A stretch of 64,000 nt of DNA, taken from Salinibacter grassmerensis (GTDB lineage: Bacteria > Bacteroidota > Rhodothermia > Rhodothermales > Salinibacteraceae). The notes below the pieces were generated by a model that saw nothing but the letters and a program-made list of their open reading frames with translations, searched no databases and was not told where the DNA came from. The DNA lies in assembly GCF_947077765.1 (NCBI RefSeq), contig NZ_CAMTTF010000002.1:558001-622000 (forward strand). The letters run 5' to 3'. This document shows positions 2,559-11,466 of the stretch, piece after piece (within the stretch, counting starts at the first letter, position 1; each line of letters opens with the position of its first letter). Made by a program: the position numbers and the translations under genes.

Positions 2559-3968
2559 CTACAGCAGCGTCCGCACGTCGGTGACCTCGCCTTCCACCGC
2601 CGCCGCTACGACCATGGCGGGGCTCATCAGCACCGTGCGGCCGTCCTTGCTTCCCTGGCGGCCGATGAAGTTGCGGTTGGAAGAGGAGGCGCAGAGCTCG
2701 CGGCCCTCGAGCTGATCCTGGTTCATGCCGAGGCACATCGAGCAGCCGGCGCCGCGCCAGTCGAAGCCTGCGTTGCGGAAAATGTCGGCCAGGCCTTCGT
2801 CCTCCGCCTGCTGCTTCACGCCCTGCGAGCCGGGGACGACCATCGCCCGCACATCGTTGGCCACCGGGCGGTCCAGTCGCTCCAGGAGCGAGGCGGCCTC
2901 GCGAAGGTCGGCGATGCGGGCGTTGGTGCAGGAGCCGAGGAACACGACGTCCACGTTGACCCCCTCCATCGTGCGACCGGGCCGCAGGTCCATGTGATCG
3001 AGCGCCTTCTCGGCCGTGGCCCGGTCCCCCGAGTCCATCCGGGCCGGATCCGGAATGGGCTCCGAGATGCCGAGGGCCTGGCCGGGCGTGATGCCCCAGG
3101 TCACCATCGGCTCGATGGCCGAGCCGTCGAACGTCACCGTGTCGTCGTAGGTGGCATCCGGATCGGAGTGGATGTCCTGCCAGCAATCGACGGCCCGCTC
3201 CCAGGCCGCCCCGGTCGGGGCGTGCGGCCGGCCCTTCATGTACTCGAACGTCGTGAGGTCGGGGTTGACGTAGCCCGCGCGAGCACCTCCCTCCACGCTC
3301 ATGTTGCAGATGGACATCCGGCCCTCCATGCTGAGCTCCTCGATGGCGGGGCCGCCGTACTCGTAGACGTATCCGATGCCGCCCTCCACCCCTAGTTCGC
3401 CAATGATCTTAAGAATGATGTCCTTGGCGTAGACCCCCTCGTCGAGGGCCCCATTGACCTGGATGCGCCGCACGTCTTGCTTCTCCATCGCGATGCACTG
3501 GGTCGCCAGCACGTCGCGGATCTGACTCGTGCCAATGCCGAACCCGAGGTTGCCGAAGGCGCCGTGCGTGCTCGTGTGTGAGTCCCCGCAGACGATGGTC
3601 ATCCCGGGCTGGGTGAGGCCCTGCTCCGGTCCCACAACATGCACGATGCCCTGCGCCCCGGATGTTGGGTCGAAGAACGTGATGTCGTACTTCTCGGTGT
3701 TCGTCTCCAGTACCTGCAGCATCGTCTCGGCCTGGTCGTCGCCGAAGGGGCGCTCCAGGTCGGCCGTGGGGATGATGTGGTCGGTGGTGGCGTAGGTGCG
3801 GTCGGGGAACGCCACCGATAGGTCACGCTCTTCGAGCATGCCAAACGCCTGCGGGCTCGTCACCTCGTGAATCAGGTGCAGGCCCACAAACAACTGGGTC
3901 TCGCCGGTGGGCAGTTCGCGGACGGTGTGCTGGTTCCAAACCTTGTCGTAGAGGGTGCCGCTGGACAT
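2559..3968 (-). CDS. leuC: 3-isopropylmalate dehydratase large subunit
   Basis: Large 4Fe-4S subunit of isopropylmalate isomerase in leucine biosynthesis. The 469-aa protein begins MSSGTLYDKVWNQHTV, typical of LeuC, and carries the aconitase signatures VCGDSHTSTHGAFG, VFLGSCTNARI and GCSMCLGMN, which supply the three cluster cysteines. Thirty upstream in-frame codons are basic and unlike the family, so the ATG at 3968 was chosen. It sits between leuA (93 bp) and leuD (59 bp) in the same orientation. Confidence 0.97.
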   Translation of the reverse strand: MSSGTLYDKVWNQHTVRELPTGETQLFVGLHLIHEVTSPQAFGMLEERDLSVAFPDRTYATTDHIIPTADLERPFGDDQAETMLQVLETNTEKYDITFFDPTSGAQGIVHVVGPEQGLTQPGMTIVCGDSHTSTHGAFGNLGFGIGTSQIRDVLATQCIAMEKQDVRRIQVNGALDEGVYAKDIILKIIGELGVEGGIGYVYEYGGPAIEELSMEGRMSICNMSVEGGARAGYVNPDLTTFEYMKGRPHAPTGAAWERAVDCWQDIHSDPDATYDDTVTFDGSAIEPMVTWGITPGQALGISEPIPDPARMDSGDRATAEKALDHMDLRPGRTMEGVNVDVVFLGSCTNARIADLREAASLLERLDRPVANDVRAMVVPGSQGVKQQAEDEGLADIFRNAGFDWRGAGCSMCLGMNQDQLEGRELCASSSNRNFIGRQGSKDGRTVLMSPAMVVAAAVEGEVTDVRTLL

Positions 3969-4061
3969 TGAAGGGGGAAGTCGATCTGAAGGGAGACGCT
4001 GGAGTTTGGGGCGGACGCGACACGCGAGGCTGCCATTCTTGCCCGCAGCGCGTTTCACGCA

Positions 4062-5702
4062 TCATTCCTTGTACGTGTGCATGATGCCGTTTTGCACGAA
4101 TTCGACGGACTCGGCGTGCTCGCGGGCGGCGACGAGGCGGTTCAGGGCGTCGACGTACGCCTCGGCGGAGGCCCGAATGACGTCCGTGTTGCGGGCCGTG
4201 CCGGCGAACTGATTTTCGCCGTAGCGGATGGTGACCTCGACCTCGCCCTGCGCGTCGGCCCCCTCGCTGATGGAGCGGATCGAGTAGTCGACCAGTGTGT
4301 GGGGGGCGTCCACGGCGTGATCGAGGGCGCGGTAGAGCGCGTCCACCGGGCCCTCCCCCGTGGTCTGCTCTTCACGGATCGAGCCGTCGTCGCGCTGTAG
4401 ACGCACCGAGACCTGCGCCTCGTCGTCCGAGCCGAGGTGTACGGAGAAATGGTCGAGCCGGTAGGCGGGCGTGCTGCCGTTGGGGGCGGCCCCGCTGTCG
4501 GGGAGGCCCTTCGCCGTCGCGACCGCGTCGTCGCCGAAGTCGTCCATCATCTGCTCAAGGTCTTCCTCGAACACCTCCTTTTTGCGGTCGGCCAGGTCGA
4601 GGAACCGATCGTAGATCTCATCGCGGTGGCCGTCGGGGACCGTGTGCCCCATGGCCTCCAAGCGGTTGAAGAGGCCGTGGCGGCCGGAATGGCGGCCCAG
4701 CCGGATCTGCTCGGCGTCCTGCCCCACATCCTCGGCGGACATGATTTCGTAGGTGGTTCGCTCCTCGAGCACGCCGTGCTGATGGATGCCGGCCTCGTGG
4801 CTGAACGCGTTGCTGCCCACGATGGCTTTGTTGGGCTGCACCGGGAAGCCCGTGGCCGCCGAGACCACCTGGCTGGTCGGCGTCAGGTGCTTGGTGTGCA
4901 CGTCCGCGTTCACGTCGAACTCGTCTGCCCGCACGGTCAGTGCCATGACGATCTCTTCCAGTGCGGCGTTGCCGGCACGCTCGCCGATGCCGTTAATCGT
5001 GCATTCGACCTGTCGGGCGCCCGCCCGGATGCCCGCGAGCGTGTTGGCCGTGGCAAGGCCGAGGTCGTCGTGGCAGTGGGTGGAAAGGGTCACTGCGTTT
5101 GGGCTGGGCAGGCAGTCGACCACCGTTGTCAAAAGGTCCGCGTACTCCGACGGGGCGCAGTACCCGGTTGTGTCTGGAATGTTGATGGTCGTGGCGCCGG
5201 CCTCGGCCGCGGCCTGCACAATTTCGCAGAGAAAGGCCGGATCGGTGCGCCCGGCGTCCTCGGCGCTAAACTCCACATTGTCGGTGTAGGTGAGGGCCTG
5301 CTCGATGGCGCGCACGGCGCGCTGAATGATGGCCTCCCGCTTCTCGGTCATCGTGTCCCCGAGGGCGTCGAACTTGGCCCCGATATGAACATCGCTCGTC
5401 GCGATGAAGGTGTGGAGGCGCGTGTCGCTCCCGTTGGCCAGGGCCTCCCCGGCGGCGTCGATGTCGTCCTCCTTCGTTCGGGCGAGGGCACAGGCGACCG
5501 GGCCGTCCACCTCGGTCGCGATGCGGGCCACGGCCTCGGTCTGGGCGGGGGACGAAATGGGAAAGCCGGCCTCAATAACGTCCACGTTTAGATCCGCCAG
5601 CCGGTGGGCGATGCGGACCTTCTCCGGGACGGTCATCGAGGCGCCGGGCGCCTGCTCGCCGTCGCGCAAGGTCGTGTCGAAAATTGTAATGGAGTCACTC
5701 AT
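4062..5702 (-). CDS. leuA: 2-isopropylmalate synthase
   Basis: First committed enzyme of leucine synthesis: condenses acetyl-CoA with 2-oxoisovalerate. The 546-aa protein begins with the catalytic TIM-barrel signature FDTTLRDGEQAPGASM, has the HCHDDLGLATAN metal-binding motif near residue 210 and a long C-terminal region (about residues 400-520) matching the LeuA dimer/regulatory domain, so leucine feedback inhibition is expected. The 546-aa length favours the bacterial long form over the shorter homocitrate or citramalate synthases. A 61-codon frame fills the 174-bp gap to leuB (see findings). Confidence 0.96.
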   Translation of the reverse strand: MSDSITIFDTTLRDGEQAPGASMTVPEKVRIAHRLADLNVDVIEAGFPISSPAQTEAVARIATEVDGPVACALARTKEDDIDAAGEALANGSDTRLHTFIATSDVHIGAKFDALGDTMTEKREAIIQRAVRAIEQALTYTDNVEFSAEDAGRTDPAFLCEIVQAAAEAGATTINIPDTTGYCAPSEYADLLTTVVDCLPSPNAVTLSTHCHDDLGLATANTLAGIRAGARQVECTINGIGERAGNAALEEIVMALTVRADEFDVNADVHTKHLTPTSQVVSAATGFPVQPNKAIVGSNAFSHEAGIHQHGVLEERTTYEIMSAEDVGQDAEQIRLGRHSGRHGLFNRLEAMGHTVPDGHRDEIYDRFLDLADRKKEVFEEDLEQMMDDFGDDAVATAKGLPDSGAAPNGSTPAYRLDHFSVHLGSDDEAQVSVRLQRDDGSIREEQTTGEGPVDALYRALDHAVDAPHTLVDYSIRSISEGADAQGEVEVTIRYGENQFAGTARNTDVIRASAEAYVDALNRLVAAREHAESVEFVQNGIMHTYKE

Positions 5703-5876: not shown

Positions 5877-6974
5877 TCATGGCGTAGGGGCATTTTGGGG
5901 CGTGTAGTCGGCGGCGTGGCGAGCGACTGCTCGCCCGAAGACGGCGGTCGAGGCGGGCTCCTCTCTGTCCGGCGCAAGGTCGGCGGTACGGTGTCCGGTC
6001 TCCAGGGCCGCGTCGATGCCGTGTCGGATCGCGTCGGCGGCCGCTGTCTCACCGAATTCGTCGAGCAGGAGGGCAGCGCTTAGAATGGCCGCGGTGGGGT
6101 TTGCAGCGCCCTGGCCAGCAATGTCGGGGGCGCTGCCGTGGACCGGTTCGAAGAGGCCCACTGTGCCCCCGACGCTGGCGGAGGGCAGAAGCCCCAGCGA
6201 GCCGGGGAGGGCCGCCGCGAGGTCCGAGAGAATGTCGCCAAAGAGATTGCTGGTGAGTACCACGTCGAACTGGCGCGGGTCTCGGACCACCTGCATCGCG
6301 GCGTTGTCGACGTACAGGTGGCGAAGGGTCACGTCAGGGTATTCGTCGTGGACCTTGGTCACGACCTCGCGCCACAGCCCCGACACCTCCAGCACGTTCG
6401 CCTTGTCGACGGACGTCACTTCTCTGTCGCGCCGCCGGGCACGCTGAAAGGCGACGTGGGCGATGCGCTCGATCTCGTCGTTCGAGTACTCCATCGTGCT
6501 CCGGGCGCCGTCGTCGGTGCGGCCCTCGGGCGTGCCGAAGTAGATGCCGCCGGTCAGTTCGCGGACGAACAGGAGGTCCGTGCCGCCTACACGGCCGGGG
6601 CGAAGGGGCGAGGCGTCGGTTAGGGCCTCTGGCACGCGGACCGGACGCAGATTCGCGTAGACGCCCAGGGCCTCGCGCAGGGCGAGGAGGCCGCTCTCGG
6701 GACGCCGGTCGCCGGTCGTGTCGGCCCACTGCAGGCCTCCGACCGCGCCGAGCAAGACGGCGTCACTTTCCAGGCATGCGTCGCGGGTGGAGGCAGGAAA
6801 CGGCGCTCCCGTCTCGTCGAGTGCCGCGCCTCCGATCCGGTACTCCGTGGCCGTTACGGAAAATCCGTGGGCCGAGCCCACCGCCTCCAGTACGCGGAGT
6901 GCTTCCCGCGTCACCTCCGGGCCGACGCCGTCACCGGGAAGCCAGGCAATGTCGTACGATCGTGTGTCGTCCAT
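5877..6974 (-). CDS. leuB: 3-isopropylmalate dehydrogenase
   Basis: NAD-dependent oxidative decarboxylation of 3-isopropylmalate in leucine synthesis. The 365-aa protein has the isopropylmalate/isocitrate dehydrogenase fold features: [11 protein letters not shown] at the N-terminus, the [10 protein letters not shown] loop specific to LeuB, and the [12 protein letters not shown] and [14 protein letters not shown] metal and cofactor motifs. Length is typical. Located between ilvC (64 bp) and leuA in the operon. Loop sequence separates it from isocitrate and tartrate dehydrogenases. Confidence 0.97.
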
Positions 6975-7038: not shown

Positions 7039-8085
7039 TCAGTTCGACGGGGCCGGGGTCTGCTCCGCCGCGCCGGGGGCGCTCTCGTCTTCCGACGCCT
7101 CGTCGCCGTCCAGCCAGGGCATCATGCCGCGGAGTTTCTGGCCGACCTGCTCGATCGGGTGCTCCGTGAGGGCCGTGCGTTCGTCCTGGAGCTGCGGCGC
7201 GCCCTGCTCGTATTCCTCGATCCACTCGTCGGCAAATTCGCCGGACTGCACCTCCTCAAGGATCGTTTGCATCTCCTCCCGCACCGTGTCGTCAATCACG
7301 CGGGGACCGCGCGTATGGCCGCCGTACTCGGCGGTATCGCTTACCGAGTGGTTCATGCACTCGAGGCCGCCTTCGTAGTAGAGGTCCACGATCAGCTTTA
7401 GCTCGTGGAGGCACTCGAAGTAGGCTAGTTCTTCGGGGTAGCCCGCGTCGACGAGCGTCTCGAAGCCCGCCTGGATCAGGGCCTGTGAGCCGCCGCAGAG
7501 CACGGCCTGCTCGCCGAACAGATCGGTTTCGGTTTCGTCCTTGAAGGTCGTCTCGATGACGCCCGCATGGGTGCCGCCGATGGCATCGGCGTAGCTGAGG
7601 GCGAGGGCCATTGCGCCGCCGGACGAATCCTGGTCGACCGCCGCGAGGCACGGCACACCGCTGCCGTCCGCGTAGGTGCGGCGGACAAGGTGGCCGGGCG
7701 ATTTGGGCGCTACCATGAAGACATCGACTGCCTCGGGCGGCTCAATGCGGTCGTAGTGGATGTTGAAGCCGTGTCCGAAGCCGAGGGCCGTGCCGGGCGT
7801 CATGTGCTCCGCAATCTTCGCCTCGTAGACGTCCTTCTGGTGCTGATCGGGAATGAGGAGCATCACCACGTCCCCCCACGCGGCCGCCTCGCCGACGTCC
7901 ATTACCGTGAGACCCTGCTGTTCGGCCTTCGGACGAGAGGAGGAGCCCGGGCGCAGCCCGACAGCCACGTCGACCCCGCTGTCGTGTAGATTCAAGGCGT
8001 GGGCGTGGCCCTGGCTGCCGTAGCCGATGACGGCGACCTGCTTGTCGTGGATGAGAGAGGGATCAGCGTCGTAGTGGACGTCCAT
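7039..8085 (-). CDS. ilvC: ketol-acid reductoisomerase
   Basis: NADPH-dependent isomerisation and reduction of acetolactate and acetohydroxybutyrate, second step of the common valine/isoleucine pathway. The 348-aa protein shows the Rossmann motif [13 protein letters not shown] near residue 20 and the class I knotted domain with the conserved acidic metal ligands ([12 protein letters not shown]; later [13 protein letters not shown]). The first 23 in-frame codons upstream are unlike the family, so ATG 8085 ([11 protein letters not shown]) is used. The C-terminus carries a short acidic/Ala-Pro tail typical of halophilic extension. Confidence 0.96.
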
Positions 8086-8162
8086 ATCGGGAGTACGGAT
8101 TGAGAGAGGGAAGGAAATGGATAGGGGGCGGCGCTCACCGGCAGTGGGCCCCACAGGTGGGG

Positions 8163-8816
8163 CTACTCGCCGTCCGAAGAGGCGCCGTTGGTGGAGGGCT
8201 CAGCGTCGGCGGAGGCAAGGGGGTTGGGCGCCTCGTACTCCAGAGCGCGGTGCATCGCCACCTGCCCGCTGCGCGCGACCTCCTCGATCCCGTGCTCCTC
8301 CATCATGCCGACGAAGGCAGTGACCTTCTTCGTTGGGCCGGTGACCTCCAGTACCATTGTCTCCGGCGTCACGTTGACGACGCGCCCGCGGAAGATGTCT
8401 TTGATGTCGAGCACCTCCGACCGGGTCTCAGACGTGTACTGGACCTTGAGCAGGCAGAGCTCGCGCTCCACGTGCTCCGCGTCGGTCAGATCGGTGACGT
8501 CGTAGGTGTTGACGAGGTTGTCGAGCTGGCGCGTAATCTGAGCCACGATGCGGTCGTTGCCCACCGTGACGAGCGTAAGGCGGGCGACGGAGGGCTCGTC
8601 GGTCTCCCCCACGGCGACGCTCTCCAGGTTGAAGCCCCGCGCCGAGAAGAGATTCGTAACGCGGTTGAGCGCGCCAATCGTATTGTCGAGCGTGACGGCG
8701 ATGATGTGCCGGTGCTCCTGGTCGGTCTCGTCCTCTTCTTCCGGCAAGAGGGGCTCGCCAAACTTGCGCTTCCGGCGGATCTGTTGGCGGGTGAGGGGCT
8801 CTTCGGACATCGGCAT
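8163..8816 (-). CDS. ilvN: acetolactate synthase small (regulatory) subunit
   Basis: Regulatory subunit of acetohydroxyacid synthase; its ACT domains bind valine and activate and feedback-regulate IlvB. The 217-aa product has an N-terminal charged extension of about 35 residues, then an ACT domain ([21 protein letters not shown]...[10 protein letters not shown]) followed by the second ALS-type C-terminal domain. It is longer than the usual 160-170 aa because of both termini. Two ATGs lie two codons apart at 8816 and 8810; either may be used. It follows ilvB after 92 bp that contain a GC-rich hairpin. Confidence 0.93.
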
Positions 8817-8908: not shown

Positions 8909-10699
8909 TCAGGTGTCGGCCATCGCGTCCTTGTCGAACATCTCGGTGAGCATGTCGTCGCTGGCGGCGCCGGCGGGGACCATGGGAAAGACCATCTCCT
9001 CCTTCGGCACCCGAAATTCCATCACGACGGGCCGATCATCGACCGTCCAGGCCTCGTCAATCACCTCGCCTACCTCACTGGGCGAGGTGGCGCGCAGGCC
9101 GACGCAGTGGTGCGCCTCCGCGAGCTTCACGAAGTCGGGGTTTGTCGGGCGCAGGTTCGTGTGGCTGAAGCGGTCCTCATGGAAGAGGGACTGCCACTGC
9201 CGCACCATGCCGAGGTAGTTGTTGTTCAGGACGGCGATCTTGAGGGGCAGGCCGTGCCGGGCCGCCACGCTCAGCTCCTGCGCGTTCATCACGAAGCCGC
9301 CGTCGCCGCTCACGCAGATGACGTCCAGGTCGCGCCCCTCGCGCATGCCGAAGGCCGCGCCCATCGCCGCGGGCAGGCCGAAGCCCATGGTGCCGAGGCC
9401 GCCCGAGCTGATGTGGGAGCGCGTTCGCCCAAACTTGTAGTACTGGCAGACCCACATCTGATGCTGTCCCACGTCGGACACCATCACCGCGTCTCCCTGG
9501 GTCTTCTCGTACAGGGCGTCCACGACGGACTCCGGTGCGATCTCGTCGTCCTCGGGACTCTCGTATTCGTAGGGCGGACACTCGCCCCGCCATTCGTCGA
9601 TCTGAGTGAGCCAGTCGGACGTGTCCTTCGGCTCGATCTTCGGCTGGAGTTGCTCCAGGACCGTCTGGGCGTCGCCGATGAGGGCACAGTCGGCGTACAC
9701 GTTTTTGGAGATGCAGGAGGGGTCGATGTCGACGTGAATGATCTCCGCGTTGGGCGCCCACGCGTCCACGTCGCCGGTAACGCGGTCGTCGAACCGGGCC
9801 CCGATGGCGATGATGAGGTCTGCGTTCTGCACGGCCATGTTGGTGTGGTAAAAGCCGTGCATGCCGAGCCAGCCGAGCGCGAGGTCGTCGGTCTCCGGAA
9901 ATGCACCGAGTCCGTGCAGGGTAGTGGTGACCGGAATGTTGGCCGTGCGGGCGAGCTCAGTGAGAACCTCCGGGGCGTCGGCGTTGATCGTCCCGCCCCC
10001 CACGTACAGAAGTGGCTTCTCGGCCTCCTCAATCATCGCTGCCGCCCGGTCCACCTGTGTGGGAGCCGCGGCGCCGGGGACAGAATAGCCATCCAGGCCC
10101 GGCTCCTCGGGGTAGATGAATGGGGCGTCATCCATCTGCACGTCTTTCGGAATATCCACGACGACGGGCCCTGGACGGCCCGTGCGGGCAATGTGGTAGG
10201 CCTGCTTAACCGTAGAGGCCAGCTCGTTCACGTCCCGCACCAGAAAGTTGTGCTTTGTGATGCTGCGGGTGACGCCCGTCGTGTCGGTTTCCTGAAAGCT
10301 GTCGTTGCCGATCAGATGGGTAGGCACCTGGCCGGTGAAGACGACGATGGGAACCGAGTCGAGGTAGGCATCCGCGATGCCCGTCACGGTGTTGGTGGCC
10401 CCGGGCCCGCTGGTGGCGAGCATGGTGCCCACCCGACCGGTGGCTTTGGCGTAGCCCTCGGCGGCGTGGGTGCCGCCCTGTTCGTGTCGGACGAGTACGT
10501 GGTCGTACGACGGCTGGATGCGCTCCATCGCGTCGTAGATCTTGATGACGGCCCCGCCCGGATGGCCGAAGATGCGGTCCACGCCTTCTTCTTCGAGGGC
10601 GCGGACGAAAATCTCGGAGCCTTTCAGAGTGGGCGCGTCCGAAGCGCCGTTCAAAGCGGGAACGTCTGAATTGGGAGACTGCACGGTATCGGTCGGCAT
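8909..10699 (-). CDS. ilvB: acetolactate synthase large (catalytic) subunit
   Basis: ThDP- and FAD-dependent catalytic subunit of acetohydroxyacid synthase, first common enzyme of branched-chain amino acid synthesis. The 596-aa protein has the ThDP Pyr domain with the catalytic Glu segment (LVRHEQGGTHAAEGYAKATG), the central FAD-binding domain, and the PP domain with the GDGGFVMNAQELSVAARHGL...NNNYLGMV motif. The frame stays open 79 codons upstream but that extension is Arg/Pro-rich and overlaps the leader structures, so ATG 10699 is used. First enzyme gene of the operon, with a leader of roughly 370 nt. Confidence 0.96.
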   Translation of the reverse strand: MPTDTVQSPNSDVPALNGASDAPTLKGSEIFVRALEEEGVDRIFGHPGGAVIKIYDAMERIQPSYDHVLVRHEQGGTHAAEGYAKATGRVGTMLATSGPGATNTVTGIADAYLDSVPIVVFTGQVPTHLIGNDSFQETDTTGVTRSITKHNFLVRDVNELASTVKQAYHIARTGRPGPVVVDIPKDVQMDDAPFIYPEEPGLDGYSVPGAAAPTQVDRAAAMIEEAEKPLLYVGGGTINADAPEVLTELARTANIPVTTTLHGLGAFPETDDLALGWLGMHGFYHTNMAVQNADLIIAIGARFDDRVTGDVDAWAPNAEIIHVDIDPSCISKNVYADCALIGDAQTVLEQLQPKIEPKDTSDWLTQIDEWRGECPPYEYESPEDDEIAPESVVDALYEKTQGDAVMVSDVGQHQMWVCQYYKFGRTRSHISSGGLGTMGFGLPAAMGAAFGMREGRDLDVICVSGDGGFVMNAQELSVAARHGLPLKIAVLNNNYLGMVRQWQSLFHEDRFSHTNLRPTNPDFVKLAEAHHCVGLRATSPSEVGEVIDEAWTVDDRPVVMEFRVPKEEMVFPMVPAGAASDDMLTEMFDKDAMADT

Positions 10700-10895
10700 C
10701 GGTCGTGGTGGCCTAGTGTAAAGAAAACGTCGCGGGGAAAGAGGGCACGCGAGAGGGTTTCGAACAACCTGGTAGAAGCCCCGATGCCGTAGGGGTCGCC
10801 GAGACGTCGGACGGGCGTACAGCGGTCCCGGAAGAAGACCAGGGGTTGAACGCGATGACGCTGGACATGGGCTCAGGCATCGGGGGTGAGGGGGG

Positions 10896-11049
10896 CGAGG
10901 GTCAACCCCTCGGCACCGCACGATACCTGATGTCATCGCTGGGAAGGGATTGACCGTCGGTTTTTAGTCCGCAAGAATCGCAATAAGAAGGAGGACACGT
11001 GCCGAACGCCGAAGCGCGGTGGGCACGGGTCCCGTCACGGCAATCCCTT
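10896..11049 (-). promoter_or_regulatory. candidate transcription attenuator of the ilv-leu operon
   Basis: Four segments of the minus-strand leader can pair in competing ways. Segment 1 (11037-11049) lies inside the leader ORF and pairs with segment 2 (10944-10957): 13 base pairs with one bulged base. Segment 2 begins six bases after the leader stop codon. It can instead pair with segment 3 (10900-10909), ten pairs including one G-U. Segment 3 is also the upstream half and loop of a 6-bp hairpin, 10896-10901 with 10907-10912. This is the 1:2, 2:3, 3:4 topology of amino-acid operon attenuators. The 3:4 hairpin is followed by C-rich rather than U-rich sequence, so the final step could be Rho-dependent or act on something other than intrinsic termination. 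Confidence 0.5.
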
Positions 11050-11071
11050 TGGGTGTGATCGAACGACCCAT
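10964..11071 (-). CDS. putative ilv-leu leader peptide
   Basis: A 35-codon frame starting at ATG 11071 (or in-frame GTG at 11038 or 11026) ends in RVLLLIAILAD followed by TAA. Seven of the last ten or so residues are Val, Leu or Ile, just as in leu and ilv leader peptides of other bacteria. An AGGGAG sequence lies 11 bases before the ATG. It is 264 bp upstream of ilvB on the same strand, and its coding region is enclosed by the complementary segments described for the attenuator. The peptide itself would have no function; translation speed through the Leu/Ile codons would sense charged tRNA. Inferred from sequence layout only. Confidence 0.5.
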   Translation of the reverse strand: MGRSITPKGIAVTGPVPTALRRSARVLLLIAILAD

Positions 11072-11181
11072 GGAGGCCCAGTCTCCCTGAACAGAGGGAG
11101 AACTCGGATTGGACGCCAAGAAGGTGGGTTGCGAGGAAGACGTCATCGGTACGGATAGGCCGTCCTTTGAAGGTAGACCCC

Positions 11182-11210
11182 AACTAGAGGGACACGCAGT
11201 GCCGTGTCAA
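11182..11210 (-). promoter_or_regulatory. possible promoter of the ilv-leu operon
   Basis: On the minus strand a perfect -35 hexamer TTGACA (11205-11210) is followed after 17 or 18 bases by CTAGTT/TAGTTG, a weak -10. It lies about 110 bp upstream of the leader ORF. The -10 match is poor and Rhodothermota promoter rules are not well known, so this is tentative. Confidence 0.3.
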
Positions 11211-11466
11211 GGATAGAAGGAAAACTAGGCACTATGTTCAGGACGGGAAATCCTCCGATACGAAGCGCTTCCGATACGAAGAAAGTTGAATAGGCGTCAC
11301 CAGGCGGCGAATGTATTTACCTGATTCTCCAATAGGCCTCAAAAATTTGTTTATCGGAAGTGCAAGAAGAATTTAAGTTCACGTCGTATTCATGGTATTG
11401 GGGTCCGGGAGGGGTGAGACCAGGTGCCCAAGTCAAGACGAGAGGACGTGCTTGGGAGCTTTGGGG
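11211..11466. other. non-coding stretch upstream of the ilv-leu leader, with a 12-bp direct repeat
   Basis: No gene seen. It is AT-richer than its surroundings. TCCGATACGAAG occurs at 11254-11265 and again at 11270-11281 (16-bp period), about 45 bp upstream of the candidate -35 box, a spacing compatible with an activator site. The stop of the SRPBCC gene marks its far end. Confidence 0.35.

Follow-up and report, generated by a model that had tools for sequence, protein, structure and literature searches.

A candidate leader-peptide attenuator that may control translation initiation upstream of the ilv-leu genes in Salinibacter and much of its order

How a member of the Rhodothermales might adjust the synthesis of leucine, isoleucine and valine to their supply is the question raised by a leader on the minus strand in front of ilvB. 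The leader belongs to a window of 64,000 nucleotides (the whole stretch of DNA analysed), part of contig C2 of the 3.78-Mb genome of Salinibacter grassmerensis. All features described below lie on the minus strand unless stated otherwise. The first structural gene is ilvB, the acetolactate synthase large subunit (8909-10699; TIGR00118, 754 bits), followed by ilvN, the small subunit (8163-8816; NF008864, 197 bits), ilvC, ketol-acid reductoisomerase (7039-8154; NF004017, 537 bits), leuB, 3-isopropylmalate dehydrogenase (5877-6974; TIGR00169, 451 bits), leuA, 2-isopropylmalate synthase (4062-5702; TIGR00973, 637 bits), and leuC, the large subunit of 3-isopropylmalate dehydratase (2559-4058; TIGR00170, 611 bits). 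A leuD-like frame, identified by eye, lies on the same strand, and ilvD, dihydroxy-acid dehydratase, is found downstream in the same direction (75-1697, that is G000:C2:558075-559697; TIGR00110, 692 bits). An earlier note on this DNA had read the leader as a classic transcription attenuator with alternative 1:2, 2:3 and 3:4 pairings. The leader frame, its run of Leu, Ile and Val codons and the conserved 2:3 pairing stand; the terminator probably does not, and the 1:2 pairing does so in a minority of leaders. With a probability of roughly 0.64, the element is a leader-peptide attenuator acting on translation initiation and opened by starvation for Leu, Ile or Val.

The leader frame, uORF1, comprises 60 codons and a TAA stop (10964-11146) and ends in ARVLLLIAILAD. 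Its tail RVLLLIAILAD, reported earlier upstream of ilvB, and its stop at 10966-10964 are read directly on the minus strand, and the frame is conserved in the family. The family alignment covers 620 nt upstream of ilvB in 12 loci, namely 11 of Salinibacter, the window included, and L012 from another genus. The earlier note had allowed an ORF of up to 35 codons from the ATG at 11071. Since this ATG is not conserved, the equivalent in relatives being GTG, TTG or no start codon, the start is placed at 11146 (60 codons) as the most likely one on comparison of the sequences. A frame of 52-72 codons started by ATG, with the same stop, is present in 11 of the 12 family loci, and L006 and L007 have no in-frame start other than an ATG that precedes the stop by 52 codons and corresponds to 11146. 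Before the stop, the family frames terminate in ILAD, ILPG, LLPS or VLIT.

The earlier note had proposed that conservation of Leu, Ile and Val codons be checked, and a leader frame rich in them is indeed present in 12/12 Salinibacter-family ilvB loci, one of them interrupted by an insert (L011). The window leader has 8 such residues among its last 16 codons; in 400 kb of the window's own genome, frames of 8-100 codons with at least 8 I/L/V occur 0.0073 times per 450 nt of one strand, and those with at least 9 occur 0.0023 times. Codon usage in ten leader tails is strongly biased, Leu being encoded by CTT in 39 of 47 cases and Ile by ATT in 17 of 17, as against 12% and 27%, respectively, in 245 long frames of the genome. 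This bias is what would be expected of control codons. The openness of uORF1 alone is not rare, 0.17-0.49 of shuffles staying open in 8 loci. As proteins under selection, neither uORF1 nor the second frame described below finds support, no marked excess of third-position changes being seen in the 20 pairs compared (the largest contrast is 21 changes at position 3 versus 15 at position 1). In the interrupted locus (L011, genome G068), the leader stop codon is the site of an insert of about 100 nt that has inverted ends, duplicates TA and by eye resembles a MITE. Through this insert the leader frame stays open as far as the original stop, so that it ends about 34 codons later, and the second frame is shortened to 7 codons.

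Three segments of the leader are mutually complementary. Segment 1 lies inside uORF1 (11037-11050), segment 2 just after the leader stop (10943-10957) and segment 3 further on (10900-10911). The complementarity reported earlier between segments 1 and 2 is found as 13 pairs with one bulge (11050-11037 with 10957-10943), the ten-base pairing of segments 2 and 3 extends to 12 pairs, two of them G-U (segment 2 with 10911-10900), and the 6-bp 3:4 hairpin at 10912-10896 is read in the sequence exactly as described, the lack of a U tract included. In shuffles of its own locus the window leader yields p=0.013 for 1:2 and p=0.003 for 2:3. Segments 2 and 3 recur in all 12 family loci, with 149 of 153 alignment cells paired between them, and segment 1 was recovered by pattern in 10 loci (96 of 100 cells paired with segment 2) and by eye in the other two, L073 and L012. 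Orthologous leaders of the family thus retain both frame and segments (12/12), while some loci of the order have no leader.

Beyond the family, 2:3 exceeds own-locus shuffles at p<=0.05 in 39 of 45 leaders and 1:2 in 17 of 45, the window leader included; these tests left out L011 (insert), L020 (a near-copy of L018), and L109 and L154, which were outside the first list. The 2:3 pairing is therefore general and the 1:2 pairing is not, and on the latter count 1:2 may be lineage-specific. Over the ten pairs of the 2:3 core, 185 of 210 cells are paired in 21 genera (20 of the order and one apparently outside it), the best of 2000 partner shuffles reaching 179; the places were chosen by pattern and best pairing, which raises the count, and the partner shuffle controls for this only in part. 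As to the compensatory changes that the earlier note had thought worth seeking, they are found on both sides in 8 of the 10 core pairs across genera and are few within the family, where few pairs vary at all: one pair in 2:3, one in the helix P2, two in P1 and none in 1:2. Here as elsewhere, genera and species are non-independent samples.

The fold proposed earlier, with its three segments and hairpin, is present; it missed two helices that enclose the hairpin. In P1, the 5′ arm GCGATGAC (10932-10939) pairs with the 3′ arm GTCATCGC at 10859-10852 in 80 of 90 cells of the family alignment at 10 loci, among which are the two pairs with changes on both sides; P1 was not found in L012, nor its 3′ arm (10852-10859) in L011. 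In P2, CAGGTATCG (10921-10929) pairs with 10882-10874 in 101 of 108 cells at 12 loci. The 3′ arm of P2 (10874-10882) holds the ATG of a second frame, uORF2 (10880-10878), which is thereby paired in the modelled OFF fold; its unpaired value is 0.00 in all 11 family leaders tested. The layout of the closing helix is thus a 5′ arm between segments 2 and 3 and a 3′ arm on a start region, and it returns in other families. The Rhodothermus arms are CTTCACAGGC and GCCTGTGAGG, the latter immediately ahead of the ilvB ATG. At L123 the 3′ arm CTATGC, paired with GCATAG, contains the ATG of ilvB, and at L141 the 3′ arm CCATGCG, paired with CGCATGG, contains that of ilvD.

A test that omitted segment 2 asked how strongly the start region pairs with the spacer that separates segments 2 and 3; in 17 of 20 genera this pairing exceeds a shuffled null (Wilcoxon p=0.0001, a generous value as the genera are related and not independent samples); the genera not above the null are f3 g16, f6 g23 and f13 g38. 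Taken leader by leader, 13 of 45 show a closing helix significantly above its null (p<=0.05), and within Salinibacter 1 of 10 does. A simple duplex test against coding-region windows gave weak results and is confounded by segment 3. The evidence for the closing helix is accordingly order-wide, and weak in Salinibacter alone. According to these folding models, on which the masked starts rest, the default fold would mask the downstream start across the order.

When the 2:3 pairing is forced, the region from -12 to +6 of the start becomes more open in 38 of 45 leaders (mean unpaired value 0.34 to 0.52), and the start ATG itself opens in 33 of 45 (0.27 to 0.38). For the window leader the modelled energies are -43.0 kcal/mol for OFF versus -38.4 kcal/mol for ON, OFF being the more stable. 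In the modelled ON fold, the uORF2 ATG is still paired, within a different local helix, in 8 of 11 family leaders, that of the window among them. This predicted pairing is the main weakness of the translational model for the window itself. The closing helix could also coexist with 2:3 as a pseudoknot.

In the window, the covered start is not that of ilvB. It opens uORF2, a frame of 55 codons and TAG (10713-10880) whose stop lies 13 nt before ilvB. The same arrangement is seen in f1, f15, f10 and L029, where the covered ATG, 64-97 nt beyond the first base of the leader stop, opens a frame of 43-70 codons; exceptions in length are L029 (21 codons), L011 (7, after the insert) and L108, where a frame of 10 codons starts at the first ATG and one of 54 at the next, 5 nt further on. 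In the other families it is the start of ilvD or ilvB that lies 56-97 nt after the first base of the leader stop, or 116-152 nt in Rhodothermus. The stop of a uORF2-type frame is no more than 25 nt away from the ilvB ATG in 10 of 14 representatives, where a shuffle null expects 2.1 (P=2e-7, made generous by shared ancestry, the representatives having been grouped by hand), and between -60 and +25 of it in 13 of 14 (3.4 expected); L110, with no ilvB start match, was dropped, L109 was left out, and L108 was taken from its second ATG. All three frames relative to ilvB occur among these stops. An in-frame extension of ilvB was considered for uORF2 and rejected, its frame relative to ilvB being 0, 1 or 2 by locus, and the ilvB ATG of L006 being preceded, 9 nt upstream, by an in-frame stop. 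No marked codon-position signal of a selected protein was found in uORF2. The simplest reason for the stop placement would be translational coupling, or ribosome cover against Rho. Like the frames, the complementary segments and their conservation, the placement itself is read from sequence.

The position of ilvD is different in the two arrangements: it follows the leu genes in the window and stands directly after the leader in f4, f6, f7 and f13. This suggests a rearrangement that left uORF2 in the place of ilvD, and the relay frame may thus fill the place that ilvD holds in other families.

From these elements a mechanism can be proposed, in which stalling, coupling, the switch itself and the response to amino acids are what we infer. 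It is known that a ribosome covers about 15 nt past its P-site. When Leu, Ile and Val are plentiful, the ribosome would complete uORF1 and, at the stop, cover the start of segment 2; segment 3 would then fold with segment 4, and P2 and P1 would close over, hiding the uORF2 start. When charged tRNA is short, the ribosome would stall in the VLLLIAIL run with its leading edge about at the stop codon, leaving segment 2 free to capture segment 3, so that the 3:4 arm fails and the uORF2 start is exposed. That stalling in this run would free segment 2, and a pause at the stop cover its first bases, fits the capture of segment 3 on starvation. The ribosomes that translate uORF2 would terminate next to the start of ilvB and reach that gene by coupling; they would also cover a stretch of 180 nt and so should shield it from Rho. 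For other families, the model has this arm mask the ilvD or ilvB start region without an intermediate frame. Segment 1 is more than 40 nt upstream of the first Leu codon in the run, so that a stalled ribosome would leave it uncovered, whereas the trp scheme requires it to be covered; this counts against the model, and the role of segment 1 would therefore differ from that in trp. It may be speculated that a trailing ribosome covers it.

The 3:4 hairpin had been taken in the earlier note for a transcription terminator, a reading that comparison makes improbable. Terminator-like sites with a U tract occur after 1 of 45 leaders, with 1.0 expected, the search having reached ilvB in f1 and only the covered start in other families; between 10500 and 11500 of the window no terminator-like site was found. 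Taken by itself this absence is weak evidence, since gene ends in this genome seldom carry such a site: 6 of 49 convergent pairs do, with 2.5 expected, and, within the window, 1 of 37 gene ends, with 0.4 expected. A control is offered by trp. TrpE is above cut-off in 12 of 13 Salinibacter genomes, and a trp leader with a U-tract hairpin is present in 12/12 trpE loci of the genus (1.4 of 12 expected); each of these leaders holds two to five Trp codons, and its hairpin counts 12 or 13 pairs, the last of which fall in the U tract, with T-rich sequence following. Antiterminator pairing in these leaders was seen by eye only. The twelve loci are L214 and L218-L228; runs of Trp occur in their leaders, GWWLW for example, and the U-tract hairpin is GC-rich. 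No His-rich frame was seen upstream of hisG. Since the trp leaders have U-tract hairpins throughout, attenuator terminators of this kind are in use in the genus, and the ilv leader has none. A terminator role for the 3:4 hairpin is improbable, and the start regions paired to the spacer point the same way.

The main rival is control of Rho-dependent termination by the leader peptide, Rho loading on a C-rich stretch when uORF2 is untranslated. The uORF2 region of L002 has C 0.39 and G 0.23, versus C 0.35 and G 0.29 in ilvB, a clear excess of C over G is seen in 7 of 12 tabulated loci (L002, L005, L006, L008, L073, L012, L134), and the window leader has no intrinsic terminator-like site, all of which would suit Rho. 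However, L009, L010 and L103 show no such excess and L003 and L112 a weak one, there is little room where the masked start lies less than 100 nt from the leader stop (f4, f6, f7, f8, f13), and Rho alone would leave the masked starts unexplained. We regard it as unlikely, though Rho may act on top of translational control. Less probable still is the classical transcription attenuator, with 3:4 terminating without a U tract. The 1:2, 2:3 and 3:4 geometry is there, stalling at the Leu/Ile run would free segment 2 and a pause at the stop would cover its start, given the footprint size quoted above, and U-tract terminators are uncommon in this genome; yet 44 of 45 leaders have no such site whereas the trp leaders of the genus do (12/12), and neither the start regions paired to the 2-3 spacer nor the stop placement of uORF2 is explained.

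That the element is a structured RNA bound by a protein or metabolite, the short frames being incidental, seems very improbable: most positions of P1, P2 and the segments are invariant in the family, and ppGpp riboswitches are mentioned before some ilvB genes in excerpts of PMC10272879, but there is no Rfam match, and the ILV run, the biased codons and the stop position are conserved. Chance complementarity in a GC-rich leader can practically be dismissed. It is true that 1:2 alone is not rare in shuffles of many loci and that 8 triple-repeat places occur in 464 kb, both strands, the window leader not being among them as its bulge was missed by the strict search; against this stand the conservation in the family and that across the order, with changes on both sides of pairs.

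Upstream of the leader, a promoter-like pair, TTGACA (11210-11205) and TAGTTG (11186-11181), lies about 480 nt from ilvB; TTGAC is conserved in 12/12 family loci, and the putative pair at 11181-11210 was not among the sites listed by a consensus promoter scan. About 60 nt upstream of the -35 box is the motif GGAAGCGCT (11264-11272), a candidate regulator site whose role as an operator is suggested by sequence. AAGCGCT precedes the leader stop by 236-459 nt in members of f1, f3, f4, f6, f7, f10, f11, f15 and, in one case, f13. Where both elements are present, a GGAAGCGCT-like motif lies 50-73 nt upstream of the TTGACA/T box in 17 of 20 leaders, the places in f1, f3, f4, f6, f7, f10 and f11 being equivalent to 11272-11264. 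In the window leader and ten representative loci, no Rfam family was found at the gathering score; at a relaxed threshold (E up to 1) only mir-3957 appeared, on the other strand and far below cut-off (E 0.28). Elsewhere in the window, a bacterial class A RNase P RNA lies at 47012-46585.

The leader is widely distributed in the order, being present in 49 of 76 loci, upstream of ilvB or of ilvD where ilvD leads the operon. An ILV-rich leader lies upstream of ilvB in 30 of 76 ilvB loci with upstream sequence (L109 and L011 included by reading), namely 12/12 in f1, 7/7 in f11 (Rhodothermus), 6/6 in f15, 3/3 in f8, 1/1 in f10 and 1/16 in f3; among the listed ilvB leaders, the last 16 codons include 6 to 13 I/L/V, with L005 at the bottom of the range. 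Some loci have a larger gene in front of ilvB, and the leader precedes that gene in 19 of the 24 of them that were extended (f4 2/2, f7 1/1, f6 2/3, f13 14/15, f12 0/3; L140, L031, L119 and L138 of f12/f13 were left unextended). Of these 24 loci, 6 were scanned for the identity of that gene, and all 6 gave ilvD above the curated cut-off. The search found no leader at 15 of 16 f3 loci, 3/3 of f14 and the 3/3 examined of f12. The DNA pattern of the 2:3 core occurs in 30 of 114 genomes of the order versus 3 of 130 other genomes of the class, and in 2 of 244 with a reversed-pattern control. By coordinates, about 22 of the 30 matches are at the ilv leader, and the others look unrelated, except in G012, where the pattern stands beside ilvB and the upstream frame has no ILV run. 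In L101 (f3 g12), the pattern is found some 300 nt short of the end of the oriented stretch upstream of ilvB, preceded by a frame with no ILV-rich run, perhaps a decayed leader. A similar leader is found in three Bacteroidetes MAG loci apparently outside the order (L068, L090, L095), with the 2:3 pair in both of those checked. G062 and the genera g2, g4, g5, g8 and g9 of f1 give no strong ilvB match, even in genomes 98-99% complete, and auxotrophy for branched-chain amino acids is possible in them. The wider picture, an order-wide translational attenuator which in Salinibacter and some relatives relays through a protein-less frame to ilvB and shields the mRNA from Rho, while trp has a terminator-type leader, is tentative, its chances falling slightly short of even.

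The element can be compared with several known systems. The trp, leu and ilvGMEDA operons of enterobacteria are the classical leader-peptide transcription attenuators, and in the ermC and ermB translational attenuators, ribosome stalling in a leader frame frees a masked downstream start. With the former, the ilv leader shares control codons before the stop of a leader peptide and competing 2:3 and 3:4 helices, as judged by complementarity and conservation; unlike them, it has no U-tract terminator, a predicted extra helix closes over a translation start, the leader is about 60 codons long and segment 1 lies well upstream of the control codons. With the latter it shares the proposed freeing of a masked downstream start by stalling in the leader, but it would sense charged tRNA and not a drug, it serves an amino-acid biosynthesis cluster, and it is widespread in an order. 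Induction of ermB depends on two leader peptides, as stated in excerpts of PMC8274638.

In the actinobacterial LEU element, as described in parts of PMC1262725, a Leu-rich leader frame stands upstream of leuA with a masked Shine-Dalgarno box; the Leu codon run pairs with that box and there is a pseudoknot, and in the authors' view the mechanism is unlikely to involve translation of the leader. The same parts mention actinobacterial ilvB leaders with poly-U terminators and also cover translational ileS T-boxes. The Leu-rich frame and the predicted masking of a start region are shared with the LEU element as portrayed there, whereas the masking arm lies here 27-45 nt after the first base of the leader stop and not in the Leu run. 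Excerpts of PMC10272879 describe ilvB-II and ilvB-OMG motifs with an Ile/Leu/Val-rich uORF upstream of ilvB; in Corynebacterium, ilvB-II usually has a uORF of 15-17 codons and a terminator stem followed by uridines, which sets this short uORF and U-tailed terminator apart from the present leader, as does the absence of an Rfam match. A passage of PMC4833913 cites Lopatovskaya 2010 for a variant of attenuation that overlaps the ribosome binding site. It shares, as cited, the general idea of leader-peptide control over that site, and the ilv leader is hence not a new kind of element. Clues for leader-peptide transcription attenuation in a flavobacterium are given in part of PMC9723704. The earlier note knew of no such attenuator described for Rhodothermota, and a search of openly accessible papers for one found none, which does not prove absence.

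Leader-peptide attenuation of biosynthetic operons is usually taught as premature termination of transcription. Here, the output of the three-segment logic appears to have been moved to translation initiation in much of an order, beside a trp leader of the terminator type. The relay through a frame that encodes no selected protein is a directly testable design. If this reading is true, Rhodothermota would join the lineages with leader-peptide control, and the ilv and trp leaders, present in the same cells, would form a natural pair for asking why termination serves one operon and initiation the other.
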